From: Spongilla lacustris
Lineage: Eukaryota > Porifera > Demospongiae > Spongillida > Spongillidae
NCBI GenBank assembly: GCA_949361645.1
Contig: OX442431.1
Coordinates: 2,847,122-2,911,121 of the forward strand
Direction: 5' to 3'
DNA length: 64,000 nt
Position 1 is the stretch's first letter; each line of letters begins with the position of its first letter. A program made the translations under genes and the position numbers. The notes under the pieces were generated by a model, which searched no databases, was not told the origin of the DNA, and saw nothing but the letters and a program-made list of their open reading frames with translations. Shown one piece after another: positions 15,924-51,661 of the stretch.

Positions 15924-17019
15924 TTGAAAATGCCACGAGTACCAAGACTGTCAATTGAACAAAGAGTTGCCATTGTGAGGCTGTACTTTTCTAATGGAAA
16001 GAATGCCTATCTTACTGTAAGCTTGTTCCGGAGGGAGTACCCTAATTACAGGACACTATGCAGTAGCACAGTTCTGAGGGTGGTGTCCAAATTTGTGGAG
16101 CATGGCACAGTGCAGGATAGGCTGAAAACAAACTGTGGAAGAAAGAAAACTGTTCAGGTGCCAAGGAACGTTTGGCATCATTGCTCAGAAAATGCGACAG
16201 ACCCCAACTATGAGCATAAGAAGACTCCATCTAGGGACAGGATTGAGACGATCAAGTGTACAGAAGATGCTTAGGAAGACCCTGAAGATGAAGGCCTATA
16301 GGCGGCCTCTAGTACAGGCTCTATTGCCAGGTGACATTGACAAGAGAGTCAAGTGGGCAGAAGATTACCTTGAAGCAGCTGAGAGGGACTTCACCTACCC
16401 TGACTACATCCTGTGGACGGATGAAGCAATTTTCCACTTGGATGGACATGTTAACAGGCATAATGCTGTCATATGGTCAGTCCAGAACCCACATGCTTTT
16501 ATGAAATGCAGCAATCAGAAGAAGGCTGGTGTGATGGTCTGGGCTGGGCTGATCAAAGACCATATCATTGGCCCCTTCTTCATCAATGGAAGTGTCACAG
16601 GGCAAGTGTACCTTCAGCTACTACAGCAGAGGGTATGGCCAGCCCTGCAAGCTATCATGGGGGAAGAGGAAGAATTTGTTGTTTTCCAGCATGATGGAGC
16701 CTCAGCTCATTATGAAACCCGTGTTAGAGCCTGGTTGGATGGAAAGCTGGAGGACAGATGGATGGGCAGAGGGGGACCCATACCATGGCCAGCACGAAGT
16801 CCTGATCTATCTCCATTGGACTTCTGGCTATGGGGCTACCTGAAAAACAAAGTGTATGCAAATGCAGTGACAACATTGGACGAGCTAAGACAGGCTATAA
16901 TTGATGAGATGCAGGCCATTCCAGCCACTATGGTCCACAGTGCGACACTGGGGGTAGTGAGAAAGGCAGGGTTACTGCTCTCAATTGATGGGCTGCAGTT
17001 AGGATCACGACATAATTGA
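15924..17019 (+). pseudogene. Tc1/mariner-type transposase, DD41D, one frameshift
   Basis: The N-terminal part (from about 15930, MPRVPRLSIEQRVAIVRLYF) is a helix-turn-helix reader with ECK-like spacing. The catalytic part has D in LWTDEAIFHLDG, D in VFQHDGASAHY and D in SPDLSPLDFWLWGYLKNKVY. Forty-one residues separate the second and third D, the DD41D spacing of the subgroup called VS/Visitor. The N-terminal frame runs to the GRKKTV segment near 16150, where it moves by one base, so the protein is not made from one frame. The core is otherwise open to the stop at 17019. It lies just outside the right end of the nested element and inside the TA-flanked arms. Confidence 0.85.
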
Positions 17020-30440: not shown

Positions 30441-31200
30441 TCTCTAGAGGAATGAGCTCTTGCTAAATTAATTTACATATCTGACAAGAGTTAATACACC
30501 CTGCAGCAAATAATATGTATACCACTCAAACAGCACACAATAACCTACACATACAATCAGAGACATTGACACACACACAGACTTTATTCAGCAAAATTTG
30601 TTAAGCCTGCATAAGTATAAACCACAAATACATGTACATATAGTCCATGGACCACACCTACTCTAGTAGCACAGGGTCCCTGGCATTCTCCATAGTCCTC
30701 AGGTAGTTGGGATCATCTTCACCCACTGCGGCCCTCCATACTTGCATAGACCCTCATCACTTATACAGTTCTTCATGGAGATGTTGTCCCAGGGAAATGA
30801 ACTAACCACACATCACCAGGATGTCAGAGGCCCAAGGCACCCATAGGTCTCCATGGTGGTTGTACTGTAAGAGGCTCAAAAGAGACAGTACATAACCATG
30901 AACCCCTGTGGGATATTACATTTACACAACACACAGGGACACACTTACACACACCAGGGACACACCTGCACACACCAGGGACACACCTACACACACCAGG
31001 GACACAGCTACACACACCAGGGACACACCTACACACACCAGGGACACAGCTACACACACCAGGGACACACCTACACACATGTTCATCTGCAAAATAGCTT
31101 TTTAAAAGATGCTCATATGCAAGATCAGTTCAAACTAAATAGTCACTAAATCTCTAGAGAGTCACTACACATCTATAAGCAGCTAAAGCAAGCCATTCAG
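30441..31200. other. Non-coding stretch with 21-bp minisatellite
   Basis: Downstream flank of the micro-exon gene on the minus strand. No AATAAA-type signal was seen in the first 200 bp after its stop. Otherwise only the minisatellite at 30940-31078. Confidence 0.5.
30940..31078. repeat. 21-bp minisatellite, about 6.5 copies
   Basis: The unit is ACACACCAGGGACACACCTAC, alternating with a version ending CAGCTAC, so a 42-bp higher-order period is visible. Confidence 0.92.
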
Positions 31201-33764
31201 TCAATGTTCTTGTACGGTTCTCTTTGCCTGTTTGAAGGGAGATGCATGTGCACACAACATTAACAGAGCTTCAAACTCACAGTCATTAGTTGTTTGGCTT
31301 TTGCAGTTCATTGTGAAATGAAAATGAAACAGTAGAGTATAGCACAATAAAACATACAATACAAACAAATTTGATTTACAAATTTCATCAATGCATCAAG
31401 AAATTAAATTATCATGTGTGTAAAAATGGAAAATGCATTAGTTTGATACTTACACACTAATAATATCCATGGTGATGAGGAACAATAAGGAGATATGATA
31501 AGGTTGCCATGGGAAACACAACACTATTGATACTTACACACTGCATCATACATCATGTTGACAAGGGGTACAAGTAGGCAGTTTAATATCCAATGACAAA
31601 TATAACATTGTTTGCACTTACACACTATATCACAGTGTGCATAGAGGAAGGAATAAGTAGGCATTGTAAAGGTGCAATGGGAAATGCAACATAATTGATA
31701 CTTATACCTCCTGCATTGTTCATAATAGTATCCATGGCCACAAGGAATACATAGGCATTGTAAAGGTGCATGCAACATCATTGATACTTACTTTCTGCAT
31801 TGTTTATAATAGTATCCATGGCAGCAAGGAATAAGTAGGCATTGTAAAGGTGCAATGGGAAATGCAACATCATTGATACTTACCTCCTGCATTGTTCCTA
31901 AAAGTATCCATGGCAACAAGGAATAAGTAGGCATTGTAAAGGTGCAATGGGAAATGTAACATCATTGATACTTACCGACTGCATTGTTCATAATATAGTA
32001 TCCATGGCAGCAAGGAATATGTAGATATTGTAAAGGTGCAATGGGAAATGCAACATCATTGATACTTACAGGCTGCATTATTCATATGGCAACAAGGAAT
32101 ATATAGTTTTGTTAACATGCAATGTGAAATGCCACATCATTGATACTTACAAACTGCATTGTTCATATTAGCATCCATGGCAACAAGTTTTGTTAACATT
32201 TAATGTGAAATGCCACATCATTGATACGTACCCACTGCGATAATAGTATCCATGGCAACGAGGAATAAGTAGGATTGTAAATGTATGCTACATGTACATC
32301 ATTGATACTTACGTGCTGCATTGTTCAAAATAGTATCCATGGCAAAAATGAATAAGTAGGCATTGTAAAGGTGCAATGGAAAATGCAACATCATTGATAC
32401 TTACACACTGAATTGGTAATATATGTTAATTGTATAAATCCATGGTGACAAGGTCTGGATGATTAAATATGTTAAGATGAATAGGAAATTACTTACGCCC
32501 TACATCCATGGTGATAAGGAAGAAGTGGGCATTGTAAAGGTGCAATGGGAAATGAAACATCATTGATACTTACCGCCTACATTGTTCATAATAGTATCCA
32601 TGACAACAAGGAATAAGTAGGATTGTAAAGGTGCAATGGGAAATGTTACATCATTGATACGTACACCGCACTGCATTGTTCAAAATAGCATCCATGGCAA
32701 CAAGGAATATATAGGATTGTAAAGGTGCTATGGGAAATATTACATCATTGATACTTACCTCCTGCATTGTTCATAATAGTATCCATGGCAACAGGGAATA
32801 AGTAGGATTGTAAAGGTGCAATGGGAAATGTAACATCATTGATACTTACGATCTGCATTGTTCGTAATAGTATCCATGGCAACAAGGAATAAGTAGGCAT
32901 TGTAAGGTGCTTTGGGAACTGTAACATCATTGATACTTACAGGCTGCATTTTTCACAATATAGTATCCATGACAACAAGGAATATGTAGACATCGTAAAG
33001 GTGCAATGGAAAATGCAACATCACTGATACTTACCCACTGCATTTTTTATAATAGTATCCATGGCAACAAAAAATATGTAGACATCGAAATGGTGCAATG
33101 GAAAATGCAACATCTTTGATACTTACACTCTGCATTGTTCATAATAGTATCCATGGCAGCAAGGAATATGTAGACATTGTAAAGGTGCAGTGGGAAATGC
33201 TTGATACTTTCTGCATTGTTCATAATAGTATCCAAGGCAACAAGGAAAAAGTAGGATTGTAAAAGTGCAATGGGAAACGCAACATCATTGATACTTACCC
33301 GCTGCATTGTTTATAATAGTATCCATGGCAACAAGGAATAAGTAGGCATTGTAAGGTGCAAATCCGTGCAATGGAAAATGCAGCATCATTGATACTTACA
33401 CACTGGATTGGCAATGTTCAATGGCCAAAATAAGTAGTAATGCATGGAACAATGGAATATATAGCATCATGAAAGAATAACAACTCATTCATACTTACGG
33501 TGACACCGGCAACCGTCAAGCGTTCTGCACCCAAATAAATTAGTATACATGGATTATAATTAATACAACCAGTGCCACTATACCCTTTAGGTTAGCCGAT
33601 AATCGGTTATTGTGACTTGGACCTCGTACAACCACGTCTTCAACTGGATTGTTCAGTTGTTGCTGCATGAAATCGTCTTCTGGGTCCTTTAAGCGCTGGG
33701 GACGTCGACGCGCGTCGGTGAATAGCGCCAGTAGGGTCACAATTAGAGCCAGTTCCTTCAGCAT
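31201..33764 (-). CDS. Secreted small-protein gene built of one-codon micro-exons
   Basis: Exon 1 (33764-33584) starts MLKELALIVTLLALFTDA, a signal peptide, then a basic/acidic pro-region. A 59-nt intron (GTATAG, TACTAAT branch, TGCAG) leads to exon 2 (33524-33499, 26 nt), which ends in phase 0. Then come 23 micro-exons, each between CAG/TAG and GT. 33400-33402 TGT; 33299-33301 CGG; 33208-33210 AAA (weak GTATCA donor); 33127-33129 AGT; 33035-33037 TGG; 32941-32943 CCT; 32850-32852 ATC; 32759-32761 GAG; 32665-32670 TGC,GGT; 32574-32576 GCG; 32497-32499 GGC; 32405-32407 TGT; 32313-32315 CAC; 32232-32234 TGG; 32151-32153 TTT; 32070-32072 CCT; 31976-31978 TCG; 31884-31886 GAG; 31792-31794 AAA; 31708-31710 GAG; 31622-31624 TGT; 31538-31540 TGT; 31454-31456 TGT. 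The last exon is 31227-31201, after a CAG, with eight codons and TGA. The coding sum is 306 nt, 101 residues, with six Cys in the micro-exon part. The Cys-rich secreted form is compatible with a hormone-, defence- or venom-type peptide; function unknown. Confidence 0.72.
31454..33498 (-). repeat. Tandem array of ~23 miniature introns separated by single codons
   Basis: Repeat unit about 92 bp (74-98). Read on the minus strand, each unit begins GTAAGTATCAATGATG, continues through CATTTCCCATTGCACC and a pyrimidine-rich stretch to ATGGATACTATTATGAACAA, and closes TGCAG, followed by three free bases. Intron lengths from the boundaries range from 74 to 98 nt, plus a 226-nt final one. The units nearest 31.45-31.65, 32.15-32.25 and 32.40-32.50 kb are the most diverged. 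GTACGT replaces GTAAGT at 32228-32231 and 32661-32664. The conserved splice signals around a changing triplet are seen directly; splicing itself is inferred. Confidence 0.93.
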
Positions 33765-33802: not shown

Positions 33803-33827
33803 TGCGACTGAACAATTTGTTTAAATA
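33803..33827 (-). promoter_or_regulatory. Candidate TATA box and initiator of the micro-exon gene
   Basis: TATTTAAA (minus strand, 33827-33820) lies about 60 bp before the ATG at 33764, with an initiator-like TTCAGTC at about 33809-33803. This would give a 5' leader of roughly 40 nt. Weak evidence by sequence alone. Confidence 0.4.
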
Positions 33828-47421: not shown

Positions 47422-49664
47422 TAGGGTATGTTCGGCAGTGGGTAGTGTTCGGCCCCCAACGCTTCTAAAAAGGGGCTAAGGCTTACCGAATGCTTTAAAA
47501 TTGAAACAACAAATGGAACACAATCTCCAAGGAGTTAGTTTTCAGCCAGTTCAGTTAAAGTTTCATTACAAAATTTCCTGTAGCGAGTAATATTACTTTT
47601 GTTTACCCAACCTAATTTTTTGACTAAAATGGCGCAACGTACGGTGCGCAAGTGTTACAAGGTGCGATAGGGGCAACCAGCATTTGTCAGGCAAGTTTCA
47701 TCGGTTTGTACTTTTTTGGTTGTTTCTGAACTAAGAACTGAATACACTACCACAAAATATGTTTTGCTACATACAAATCTGAAATGTCGAAGAATTTCAA
47801 TGGGGGTCGAACACACCATGGTCGAATCAAGCAATTTGGGTGTGTTCGGCATAGGGGACGAACACTGCAAAAAAGAAAAAAAAAACTTTATCAATAAAAA
47901 GATATATGTTAAGGTTGTTCAAGTGGTAGGTTTCTAATATATGAATCACAGAGCAAAATATTGCCCGGAAGGAGTGTTCGTCCGGGGGGGGGGGGGGGGG
48001 GGGGGGGGTTATTGCATATAGTAACTCATATGAAATATCTTTTTATTTCTTTGTCCTCCAACATTTACAGGCAGCTGGTGCAATACAAAAATACTTGTAC
48101 TACATTTTTGTGATTTCTCTTTTCTCTGTCAACAATGATATAAATGTATTCTTGAGTACCAATTATATATATATATACATGTATATATCAATTGATTTCA
48201 CTTTTCTTTGTTAAGTAAAACCTTAGCATGATTGCCATTGCACAATACCTATATGGCGCTTCATTGCCACACATTATACATGTATGATCTAGTGATGGAA
48301 CGTCAGTACCTCAAGTACTCTCATGAGAGTATGATAGCTGCTATAAAGGAAGTAAGAGAAAGTCACATGTCTAGGCATGCAGCATCAAAGGCCTATGGTG
48401 TACCACGATCCACACTCTGTGACAAGTTGGACGGAAAGAGCCCAGAGGATTGAAAAATGGGTCCTAGTACTGTGTTGACAAAGGCTGAGGAAGCAATGCT
48501 AGCAGCATTCTGTATCAAGTTTCTGAAATGTGGCTTCCCCATAAATCGTCAGGATCTTTGTGATATTTAAGGATGGCAGGCCAGGCTTTTGCTGGTTTCA
48601 GGGTTTTATGCGACGGAACCCTGAACTTACAGAACGATCTGCAGAAATGTTGACAGCGGGGAGGGCAGTTGTAACTGAAGCTGCCATTCGAAAATGGTTT
48701 CGTGACATCCAGGCCTATATTGTGGAGGAGGAAGAAGCTGCAGATCTCTTGCAGGCTCCAGAACAAATCTTCAACTTTGATGAGTCGAATTTTCTCCTTG
48801 CCAGGAAGAAGGGGAATGTTCTGGGACCTGTAAACTATAAAAGCTTCTTACAAACATCAAAAAAAAATGATAAAGAAGGCTTAACAGTACTGATGGGCTA
48901 TTCTGCTGCAGGGAAAATGGCACCTCCTATGATAATATATGCATACAAGCAGCACATTCCCCATGACATAGCAGAGGCAGTTGAAGCTGTTGATCCCACT
49001 TGGGCAATTGGTAAGTCTGAGACAGGTTGGATGACGAGTGCTACCTTCTATGACTATATGTCGCAAGTTTTTGAGCCATGGCTTGTACAGAGCAACATCC
49101 CAAGGCCTGTCTTGGTATATGCTGATGGTCACAAGTCCCACCTTTCCCTGGAAGTGGCTGAATTCTGTACATCAAAGGGTATTCTGCTTGTTGCTCTTTA
49201 CCCTAATTCTACCCACTTGCTTCAACCACTTGATGTTTCAGTTTTTAAGAGCCTGTGGGCCACTGCCAAAAACAAATGGAAGGAAACACACTTGAACAAA
49301 AACATCAGCAAAAAAAGTTTTCCTACAGTCTTCAAGGGTGCTGTTGATCAAATAACCCTTAGTACTGTTGTGAATGGCTTTAGGAAGTCAGACCTTTACC
49401 CGCTGGATCCAGGAAAGGTAGATTATAGTAAGTGTGTTAGGGATCACCTACAACAAGAGTGTGAAGAAGCAGAACTGTCGTCTCCAGTTAGTGATCCAGC
49501 TGTATTTCAAATGAGGTGTGGCCTTCGCTTTCTTGAAGAGCGTATAGGGCATACAAAGTTATGGCTGTTTGAGTCAGCTTATGGTGGGGAATGGCAAGGA
49601 GACATAGAAGACACATCACTTTACTTGCTGTGGGCCTCTGCTAAAGAGATTGCAGAAGCATCAG

Positions 49665-50105
49665 TGGATGATGGTCCCTCAGGTGGAGGAGGTGATGGTC
49701 CCTCAGGTAGAGGAAATGGTGATCCCTCAGGTGGAGGAAATGATGTTGATGATGATCCCTCAGGTGGAGGAAATGATGTTGATGATGATCCCTCTGGTGG
49801 AGGACATCATGATCCCTCAGGTGGAGGAGATGACAATCTCTCAGTTGGAGGAGATGATGATCCCTCAGGTAGAGGAGATGGTGATCCCTCAGGTGGAGGA
49901 AATGATGTTGATGATGATCCCTCAGGTGGAGGACATGATGATCCCTCAGGTGGAGGAAATGATGTTGATGATGGCCCCTCAGGTGGAGGAGATGATGATC
50001 TCTCAGTTGGAGGAGATGATGGCCTCTCAGTTGGAGGAGATGATGGCCTCTCAGGTGGAGGAGATGGTGATTCCTTAGCTGGAGGAAATGATGATCCCTC
50101 AGACG
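49665..50105 (+). repeat. In-frame Asp/Pro/Ser/Gly repeat
   Basis: Variable-length units built from GATGATCCCTCAGGTGGAGG, translating as DDPSGGG with inserted N-D-V-D. Located between the transposase core and its basic tail. Confidence 0.92.
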
Positions 50106-50384
50106 GTGAAAGGCGAGAAGAACTGCCAAGTGATGACCCAAATGATGTAAGATCAAATTGCCCATCAACATCAAGCTTGCATAACAGGCTGCCAACTTCA
50201 GTCACTCCAATTCTGACGAAGCATTTAGTAGACCGATTAATAACATTGTCTAAGCCTAGCAACCAAACTGGAAGGAAAAGAAAACGCTCTTTATCAGCTA
50301 GTGTGTACGCTTTAACCAGCAAGAAATGGCGAGAATTGCGTGAAGCAGAAGAGGCTGAAAAAAAGTTAAAAAAGCAATCTAAGA

Positions 50385-50930
50385 AAGGAGTTGAGAAAGG
50401 GAAAGGTAAGAAAGGAAATGAGAAAGGGAAAGGTAAGAAAGGAGATGAGAAAGGGAAAGGTAAGAAAGGAGTTGAGAAAGGGAAAGGTAAGAAAGGAAAT
50501 GAGAAAGGGAAAGGTAAGAAAGGAGATGAGAAAGGGAAAGGTAAGAAAGGAAATGAGAAAGGGAAAGGTAAGAAAGGAGATGAGAAAGGGAAAGGTAAGA
50601 AAGGAGATGAGAAAGGGAAAGGTAAGAAAGGAGATGAGAAAGGGAAAGGTAAGAAAGGAAATGAGAAAGGGAAAGGTAAGAAAGGAGATGAGAAAGGGAA
50701 AGGTAAGAAAGGAGTTGAGAAAGGGAAAGGTAAGAAAGGAAATGAGAAAGGGAAAGGTAAGAAAGGAGATGAGAAAGGGAAAGGTAAGAAAGGAAATGAG
50801 AAAGGGAAAGGTAAGAAAGGAGATGAGAAAGGGAAAGGTAAGAAAGGAGATGAGAAAGGGAAAGGTAAGAAAGGAGATGAGAAAGGGAAAGGTAAGAAAG
50901 GAGATGAGAAAGGGAAAGGTAAGAAAAGAG
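50385..50930 (+). repeat. 27-bp coding repeat, about 20 copies (KKGDEKGKG)
   Basis: Each unit encodes nine residues with Asp, Asn or Val at one position (GAT, AAT, GTT); other bases are almost unchanged. Antisense frames rich in Leu/Ser are shadows of this array. Confidence 0.95.
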
Positions 50931-51661
50931 CAGAGAAACAGGGAATGATAGATCAAACAGATGAAGATGATTCTGGTGGGGATTGGAAATGCATGGTGTG
51001 TGATTCCAGTTTCTTTCAACAAGAAGAAGATGGCGTTGAATGCAAGTGGGTGCAGTGTCAGAAGTGTGATGAAACATCACATGTCACTTGCATCCCAGAA
51101 GTGCACAGAATATATTTCTCTTTTGATAGTGAAGATGAAGAGGAATACATTTGTCCAAACTGCACAAATCTTGCTGAAGACAGTGACAATTACATGTGAC
51201 TCAGTTGAGTTCCACAGCCCTGAAGTGCAAGTTGCCAGACGTATAGGCTGCTTAATAAGATGATTCCAATTCCTGCATGCAAGTATATATAGCATGCCTC
51301 AATGCTGACTGATGATTCCTGGATCTGTAGATATTTTACTCATTTTTTATAATAGTAAGAATGTTTAAATGACTCATTGCGAATGATTGTGCTATATGCG
51401 ATGACGAACACTGCCTAATCGCACTGCCGAAATAACCCTTAGCGCTGCCGACTACTGCCGAACGCTACCGTAGTGACTTTAATATTTTATTACATTTTCA
51501 ATAGACAAAAAAAAAATCACCTAAAGTGATACTGTTGTTCTAAAGTGGTTTAGGTTTCTAAAAGTGCATGTAGTATATTTTTTTAATTCCGAATATCCGT
51601 AAGGCTATTTATTGTACATCAAATTTTCGCGCGACTGCCGAACACTACCGAATCTACCCTA

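Follow-up and report, generated by a model that had tools for sequence, protein, structure and literature searches.

Conotoxin-like peptide families combine a conserved signal sequence with a hypervariable, cysteine-framed mature region, and that mature region is encoded in ordinary exons. In the micro-exon genes (MEGs) of schistosomes, 10 to 20 short exons per gene are separated by introns of 0.1–5 kbp, and the exons measure 6–81 bp, mostly 15 bp, according to the body of the text and 3–81 bp according to the abstract (PMC10526429). These ranges correct an earlier note on the DNA analysed here, which had stated that such genes use exons of several codons. Single exons of 3 nt are known from mouse Ncam and fly TnT (PMC8042270); the unusual part is the long series of 3-nt exons, which the same note had held not to be described. 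For APC11 of Arabidopsis, Guo and Liu (PMC4674806) proposed intron definition with recursive splicing, by which the introns flanking a 1-nt exon might be removed in turn.

The locus described here, from the sponge Spongilla lacustris, is predicted to encode the body of a peptide by a series of one-codon exons. No earlier report of sponge micro-exon arrays was found among the papers listed in searches of the open-licence PMC literature.

Results

Anatomy of the predicted gene

Re-reading of the window (the whole 64,000-nt stretch of DNA analysed, G000:C18:2847122-2911121, in a genome of 248.6 Mb and 51 contigs) demonstrated that positions 31201-33764 of the minus strand can be divided into 26 GT-AG-bounded exons without internal stop, all 25 introns having these borders (Table 1). 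The joined predicted coding sequence is 306 nt long and in frame, and specifies 101 residues, six of the array-encoded ones being cysteines. The earlier note had counted about 23 tandem units presenting three bases, once six, and the re-reading yields 22 micro-exons of 3 nt and one of 6 nt; entry into the array in phase 0, micro-exon lengths in multiples of three, the lack of stops among them and the stop-bearing exon that follows were likewise confirmed from the DNA. The residues spelled by the array are, in order, C R K S W P I E CG A G C H W F P S E K E C C C. Intron 1 is 59 nt long, the introns before and between the micro-exons 74–98 nt and the one before the last exon 226 nt. If intron 1 is removed and the array is left unspliced, the frame meets a stop 26 codons past exon 2.

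Table 1. Features of the minus-strand gene, in window positions.
Feature	Position	Strand	Remarks
TATTTAAA box, probable core promoter	33820..33827	-	63 nt upstream of ATG
Exon 1 (leader), predicted to encode a signal peptide plus propeptide (MLKELALIVTLLALFTDA...NLK)	33584..33764	-	181 nt, ends in phase 1
Exon 2	33499..33524	-	26 nt; supplies the rest of the E codon and RLTVAGVT; frame at its end in phase 0
Micro-exon array (23 exons, of which 22 have 3 nt and one has 6 nt)	31454..33402	-	introns 74–98 nt, all GT-AG
Micro-exon AAA, degraded donor GTATCA (GTATCAAGC)	33208..33210	-	4 nt absent relative to paralogues
Sole two-codon micro-exon of the array, TGCGGT (C-G)	32665..32670	-	donor GTACGTATC
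Micro-exon GAG, weak donor GTATAA (GTATAAGTA)	31708..31710	-	donor read from DNA
Terminal exon GCAAAGAGAACCGTACAAGAACATTGA (AKRTVQEH, stop TGA)	31201..31227	-	27-nt span ending in TGA

The signal peptide in exon 1 was judged by eye. Of 27 segments examined, 18 hold a leader, and 17 of these have a TATA-like box at 47–77 nt before the ATG; the exception, C1:14005033, contains none of the three TATA-like strings searched. Among the 23 micro-exon donors of the window gene, 19 read GTAAGT, two GTACGT, and two are poor. The two weak-donor units, AAA and GAG, may be skipped, which would leave the frame unchanged.

Several other elements were seen in the window. A 21-bp minisatellite occupies positions 30923-31079, just downstream of the terminal exon. 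The C16 paralogue carries AATAAA and the C18:239061 paralogue GATAAA at a place where the window, in the minisatellite region, differs; the nearest AATAAA or ATTAAA past the stop is found at 30588. By eye, one open reading frame resembles a retroelement integrase (1620-2768), another a mariner-like transposase (16135-17019) and a third a pogo/Tigger-like transposase with a repetitive tail (48560-51199).

Genome-wide occurrence and exon length

One-codon-exon arrays occur genome-wide, and the phenomenon is larger than first noted. The pattern AATGCAG-NNN-GTAAGTATCAA, with up to two mismatches, gave 1096 genome matches, compared with 11 for the reversed pattern. When the same consensus flanks were kept and the middle was left free between 0 and 12 bases, 383 exact matches were obtained and none for the reversed pattern; among the 100 matches listed, the middle measured 3 nt in 97, 6 nt in two and 12 nt in one, and no zero-length middle, although allowed, was among them. 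This search is independent of any scorer training but tied to the consensus flanks.

An exon finder that admitted any length between 1 and 21 nt was run over 113 kb of fetched array loci, merged to segments beforehand, and found 520 sense-strand exons, 494 of them 3 nt long. The reverse complement yielded five exons (none of 3 nt) and the reversed sequence 25 (four of 3 nt), and the rest of the window gave four and three, again none of 3 nt. Length did not enter the score, but training on AG-NNN-GTRMGTA sites of these segments favoured the base composition around 3-nt exons. In the longest fetched array, 46 of the 48 exons found were of 3 nt. Related units are dispersed over many contigs, and the units of one cluster share one orientation.

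Coding signal in the triplets

Stop codons are strongly depleted among the triplets. Only two were present in 484 triplets from 23 fetched arrays, as against 19.6 expected from position-wise base composition, and none of 5000 position-wise shuffles came as low; counting distinct triplets per array, stops numbered two in 253, with 11.7 expected and a proportion of 0.0002 of the shuffles as low. These counts cover 3-nt exons, those of C4:3992190, C19:5079117 and L067 being set aside together with all exons of other lengths. The two stops are a TGA in C1:8999039 and a TAA in C10:5103027, and a single TGA was found among the 97 three-nt sites listed in the free-middle search. Entropy at the three exon bases was 1.97, 1.84 and 1.51 bits, compared with 0–0.65 bits at the five bases before and six after, where the adjoining AG and GT had been imposed by the finder.

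The commonest residues in the 484 triplets were glycine (91), proline (81) and cysteine (56), and the third codon base was T in 292 and A in 114 units. Proline micro-exons in the counted arrays read CCT in 78 cases and CCG in three, with neither CCA nor CCC. Several arrays spell peptide-like strings with stretches such as GPPGPPGPP and IPPIPP; examples are GPPGPPGPPGPPGPP on C12, IPPIPPIP at C17:7662572 and a run of 16 glycines at C17:7645732. Cysteine-rich strings are spelled by the arrays on C3 and at C1:15096683. At L083 (G000:C17:561900-565500) the string DDDDDDDEE uses both GAT and GAC, which is synonymous variation between neighbouring one-codon exons. Part of the regularity of these strings is due to higher-order duplication of units. 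At L074 (G000:C17:6058900-6061800) many units were called as CAG plus a codon; these contain either two codons or a tandem NAGNAG acceptor followed by a single codon.

Leader family

Searched with the 60-residue leader at E<=10, the genome gave 44 matches; many were weak and covered the first 20–30 residues, and two represent the same C16 locus, leaving 43 loci. From the motif matches listed, at least 38 array clusters were grouped by hand, and 29 of the 38 have a same-strand leader match less than 5 kb upstream (27 of these within 1 kb), where chance would give 0.02. No leader match was found within 5 kb upstream of the other nine, whose leaders may be too diverged or lost.

Array reading covered ten of the other 14 leader loci, with C17:520340, C17:538064, C1:29702246 and C11:2830369 left out. 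The locus C1:10356827 lies upstream of array-motif sites found genome-wide, and series of 3-nt exons are present at L065, L066, L071, L073, L081 and L083, of which L081 is cut off after four units and L071 includes a TGA within an exon called at 18 nt. At the remaining three no clear array is present, L067 being decayed in part, L068 truncated and L082 devoid of one. Sequence comparison places the window gene in a family of several genes that share a conserved leader and carry a hypervariable region predicted to be array-encoded.

Divergence of codons, introns and cysteines

Mean intron-body identity within arrays falls from 0.95 to 0.56, shuffled bodies giving 0.52–0.53; units without the motif are uncounted in this comparison, as exons were found by their splice motifs. 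In C1:10353508, C1:10373048 and L065, where identity is 0.56 (five, three and nine introns compared, respectively), 11 of 12, 10 of 10 and 10 of 12 exons are nevertheless 3 nt long, and the other of the four lowest-identity arrays (3–9 introns compared in each) has 19 of 22. Such retention of 3-nt exons amid drifted introns would not be expected of a homogenised satellite.

Comparison of whole arrays between paralogues demonstrated that codons differ far more than their surroundings. Differences in introns, splice motifs and codons, respectively, were 2.1, 1.4 and 15.6% for the two C13 copies, 11.7, 3.2 and 55% for the two C18 genes, 10.0, 2.4 and 33.3% for C13:1407464 and C16, 10.4, 2.6 and 48.0% for C18:239061 and C16, and 4.2, 1.0 and 9.5% for C1:10373048 and C1:10353508. 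Some of this codon difference reflects gain, loss or swap of units, and that of the C13 pair is partly unit insertion or swap. A filter was applied that retained codons with 40 flanking bases ungapped and at least 90% identical, by which flank difference is capped at 10%. In ten pairs of the window subfamily (4–25 codons each), codon bases then differed by 10.7–54.5% and flanks by 1.3–9.5%, and in C1:10373048/10353508 by 16.7 and 2.5%, whereas L065 and L071 showed no difference in 18 codon bases, with flanks 1.7% different. The paralogue pairs are not independent of one another.

Of 33 clean-flank comparisons at cysteines, drawn from all 12 pairs, 30 retained the residue, and the three changes all involve C18:239061, which has only four array cysteines. 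In a five-way paralogue alignment, of which the two ends were read, all five sequences have the first cysteine codon and two of the terminal three; the last one is found in four, owing to a deletion in C16. Exon 2, as counted on the alignment, is 23, 29, 23 and 29 nt long in the four aligned paralogues, so that its length varies by multiples of three. The terminal exon is identical in C18:239061; in C16 its first 26 nt are identical, after which a deletion moves the stop to a later TAG, and in the two C13 rows the alignment stops after GCAAAG(A). In both C13 paralogues (C13:1407464-1412858 and C13:1449600-1455001) a shared deletion has removed the exon-1 donor, and divergence has been faster in the array codons than in the introns; both copies may be pseudogenes. 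The combination of fast codons and kept cysteines is consistent with the pattern that diversifying selection on a cysteine-framed peptide would give, and a codon-targeted mutation process is a possible alternative source.

A second series of one-codon exons

Four stretches of contig C4 between 3.4 and 4.0 Mb (L002, L075, L076 and L077) contain an unrelated tandem unit of 140 bp with AG-NNN-GTAAGTATC. By this pattern, 59 of the 60 exons in the four stretches are 3 nt long and one is 2 nt; the triplets are varied, and no stop is among the codons listed. The unit has 110 genome matches, 108 of them on C4, with further matches at 8.25 Mb. Exons judged by eye to be ankyrin-like adjoin the series in L002 and L075. 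This suggests that the habit of one-codon exons extends beyond the leader-peptide family.

Relatives in other genomes

A protein profile search, in which the 7979 candidates sharing most words were scored, returned 39 relatives at E<=1. Of these, 15 are named Ephydatia muelleri or carry Em gene numbers, Ephydatia being the only genus named among the 39. Together with the mitochondrial COX1 of the genome, which reads with TGA as tryptophan and precedes tRNA-Ser(uga) and tRNA-Asp in an order found in demosponges, these relatives point to a freshwater sponge or a near relative as host. No spliced array product was found among them, all being leader open reading frames or models that run into the intron or elsewhere. 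In five E. muelleri models (P0008, P0020, P0032, P0033 and P0035) the last leader exon is followed by a single residue and then by VSI, which is the translation of GTAAGTATC; the tails of P0014 (NNAESEYQ) and P0034 (AVCKYQ), as back-translated here, fit GCAG-NNN-GTRAGTATCAA. The array unit thus seems to be common to both species. P0002 matches the C18:239061 locus without difference, its reading continuing through the first intron into the array. The protein P0007 was considered as a spliced array transcript and rejected, its tail being an element repeated at 66 places. A Pfam search with four peptides returned no family.

Donor sites and U1

The donor GTAAGTA follows 401 of the 484 triplets. 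Ten genome matches to U1 were obtained, and the three that were read carry AACTTACCTG, complementary to GTAAGT at +1 to +6, the A-T at donor positions +7 and +8 being unpaired with U1 in these genes. The idea of complementarity over eight intronic bases was accordingly dropped, as the three U1 genes pair only with GTAAGT. RNA structures predicted for three intron sequences were no more stable than those of shuffles.

Discussion

Proposed splicing mechanism

It is in our judgement very probable that one-codon exons are joined stepwise into a likely secreted, cysteine-rich hypervariable peptide, the splicing being predicted from the genome sequence. Favouring this reading are the 3-nt length, found without conditioning on it, the depletion of stops, the leaders upstream, the 3-nt exons in drifted introns, the codon-specific divergence and the relatives in Ephydatia muelleri. 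The proposal of the earlier note, a spliced gene of 26 exons with a secreted product of about 101 residues, gains support from this family-wide evidence, as well as from the GT-AG anatomy and the open frame. Weighing against it are the two poor donors in the window, the loss of the exon-1 donor in the two C13 paralogues, the nine of 38 clusters without a leader match, the three leader loci without a clear array, the TGA at L071, the reduced cysteines of C18:239061 and C16, the unchanged codons of L065 and L071, the share of unit insertion or swap in the C13 codon difference, the unpaired donor bases at +7 and +8, and the failure to find a spliced product among the 39 related proteins.

Exons of 3 nt are too small for exon definition, and each intron of about 90 nt would therefore be recognised as a unit, by intron definition. 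The pre-mRNA would be spliced step by step, each tiny exon adding one codon. The upstream intron would probably be removed first and the joined codon carried into the next donor, in a ratchet resembling recursive splicing that would leave one codon per step: intron n is removed, a codon is gained and the next donor is used. Such a ratchet applies in series the logic of Guo and Liu for a 1-nt exon (PMC4674806); complete inclusion of the codons is presumed. The family would grow and vary as intron-plus-codon units are duplicated in tandem, lost and shuffled, by which whole residues are added or removed and the frame is kept. Rapid replacement of codons, with most cysteines retained, would be a second source of variation; divergence of the codons themselves is seen between paralogue pairs. 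The products are likely to be diversified effector, defence or recognition peptides.

Alternative explanations

The array could instead be a satellite or minisatellite in a long intron, with splice-like motifs that belong to the repeat and with the preceding exon joined straight to the terminal exon. The tandem periods of 81–92 bp reported by TRF over the window array and the dispersal of related units over many contigs agree with this, but the three bases between the splice sites are the most variable, stops are about ten times rarer than expected, 3-nt exons persist where introns are barely alike, and codons diverge faster than their flanks, so that an array of this kind is most improbable. 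Even less credence is due to separate introner (transposable intron) insertions with the triplet as target-site duplication rather than selected codon. Although the introns are abundant copies of one sequence, only one of the 11 arrays tested, that with the glycine run at C17:7645732, has neighbouring triplets identical significantly more often than expected, and the single orientation within each cluster and the scarcity of stops speak against it as well.

Two further possibilities accept splicing in the family. The micro-exons may be optional, different transcripts including different subsets and one locus yielding a combinatorial peptide library; this is conceivable in that every micro-exon preserves the frame. 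All 23 exons of the window array are multiples of three, two of its 23 units have weak donors, and exons shorter than 51 nt are described in PMC4674806 as easily skipped. The cysteines kept in 30 of 33 clean-flank comparisons nevertheless suggest a fixed product, and with GTAAGT at 19 of 23 window donors we regard optional inclusion as unlikely. It is rather doubtful, though a possibility of some weight, that the window copy is a dead, decaying member of a real family that is spliced elsewhere. Its two poor donors, the 4-nt loss in the AAA unit, the minisatellite just past the terminal exon and the divergence from C16 at the site of its AATAAA would fit such decay; against it, the frame is open over 26 exons, and the TATA box, the leader and the terminal exon are intact. 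Stepwise joining of one-codon exons is the reading retained below.

Significance and comparison with known systems

The chances appear evenly balanced that one-codon exons on tandemly duplicated introns act as movable in-frame letters, by which residues may be inserted, deleted, permuted or replaced, dozens of them being read by a ratchet, in at least two unrelated families (leader-peptide and ankyrin-like), and that they may also give combinatorial libraries. Should transcripts confirm the prediction, no protein gene that we know of would be assembled from smaller pieces. Spliced as predicted, such genes would handle dozens of 3-nt exons each (46 in the longest fetched array), where exon definition should fail, and would thereby offer a natural system in which to test intron definition and recursive splicing. 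Protein evolution would then proceed in single-residue quanta through intron duplication. The peptide family is also one that standard gene finders miss, several Ephydatia models running into the intron at the first micro-exon.

As in conotoxin-like families, a conserved leader is combined with a hypervariable, cysteine-framed region; the Pfam search with four of the peptides matched no family. With the schistosome MEGs, which are secreted and diversifying and whose exons are mostly in-frame (PMC10526429), the genes of the leader family share a signal-peptide leader exon (here judged by eye, with secretion predicted) followed by many short in-frame exons. In contrast to the MEGs, 22 of the 23 window micro-exons are 3 nt long, and the introns are short, at 74–98 nt, and are tandem copies of one sequence. 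The exons of Ncam, TnT and Arabidopsis APC11 (PMC8042270, PMC4674806) demonstrate that splicing can include exons of a single codon or even less, as is proposed here; those are isolated cases, whereas the sponge arrays would form series that encode the body of a protein. The Drosophila ratchet points likewise place an acceptor beside a strong donor and lead to stepwise removal (PMC8605326), which for the sponge is proposed. They leave no nucleotide in the mRNA and lie in long introns, whereas here three bases separate the sites, the introns are short, and 494 of 520 exons are 3 nt long, in place of a zero-nucleotide abutment of AG and GT. The sponge arrays may therefore be regarded as a kind of micro-exon gene set apart from the schistosome MEG family, in which the serial use of one-codon exons, as predicted, would be new.
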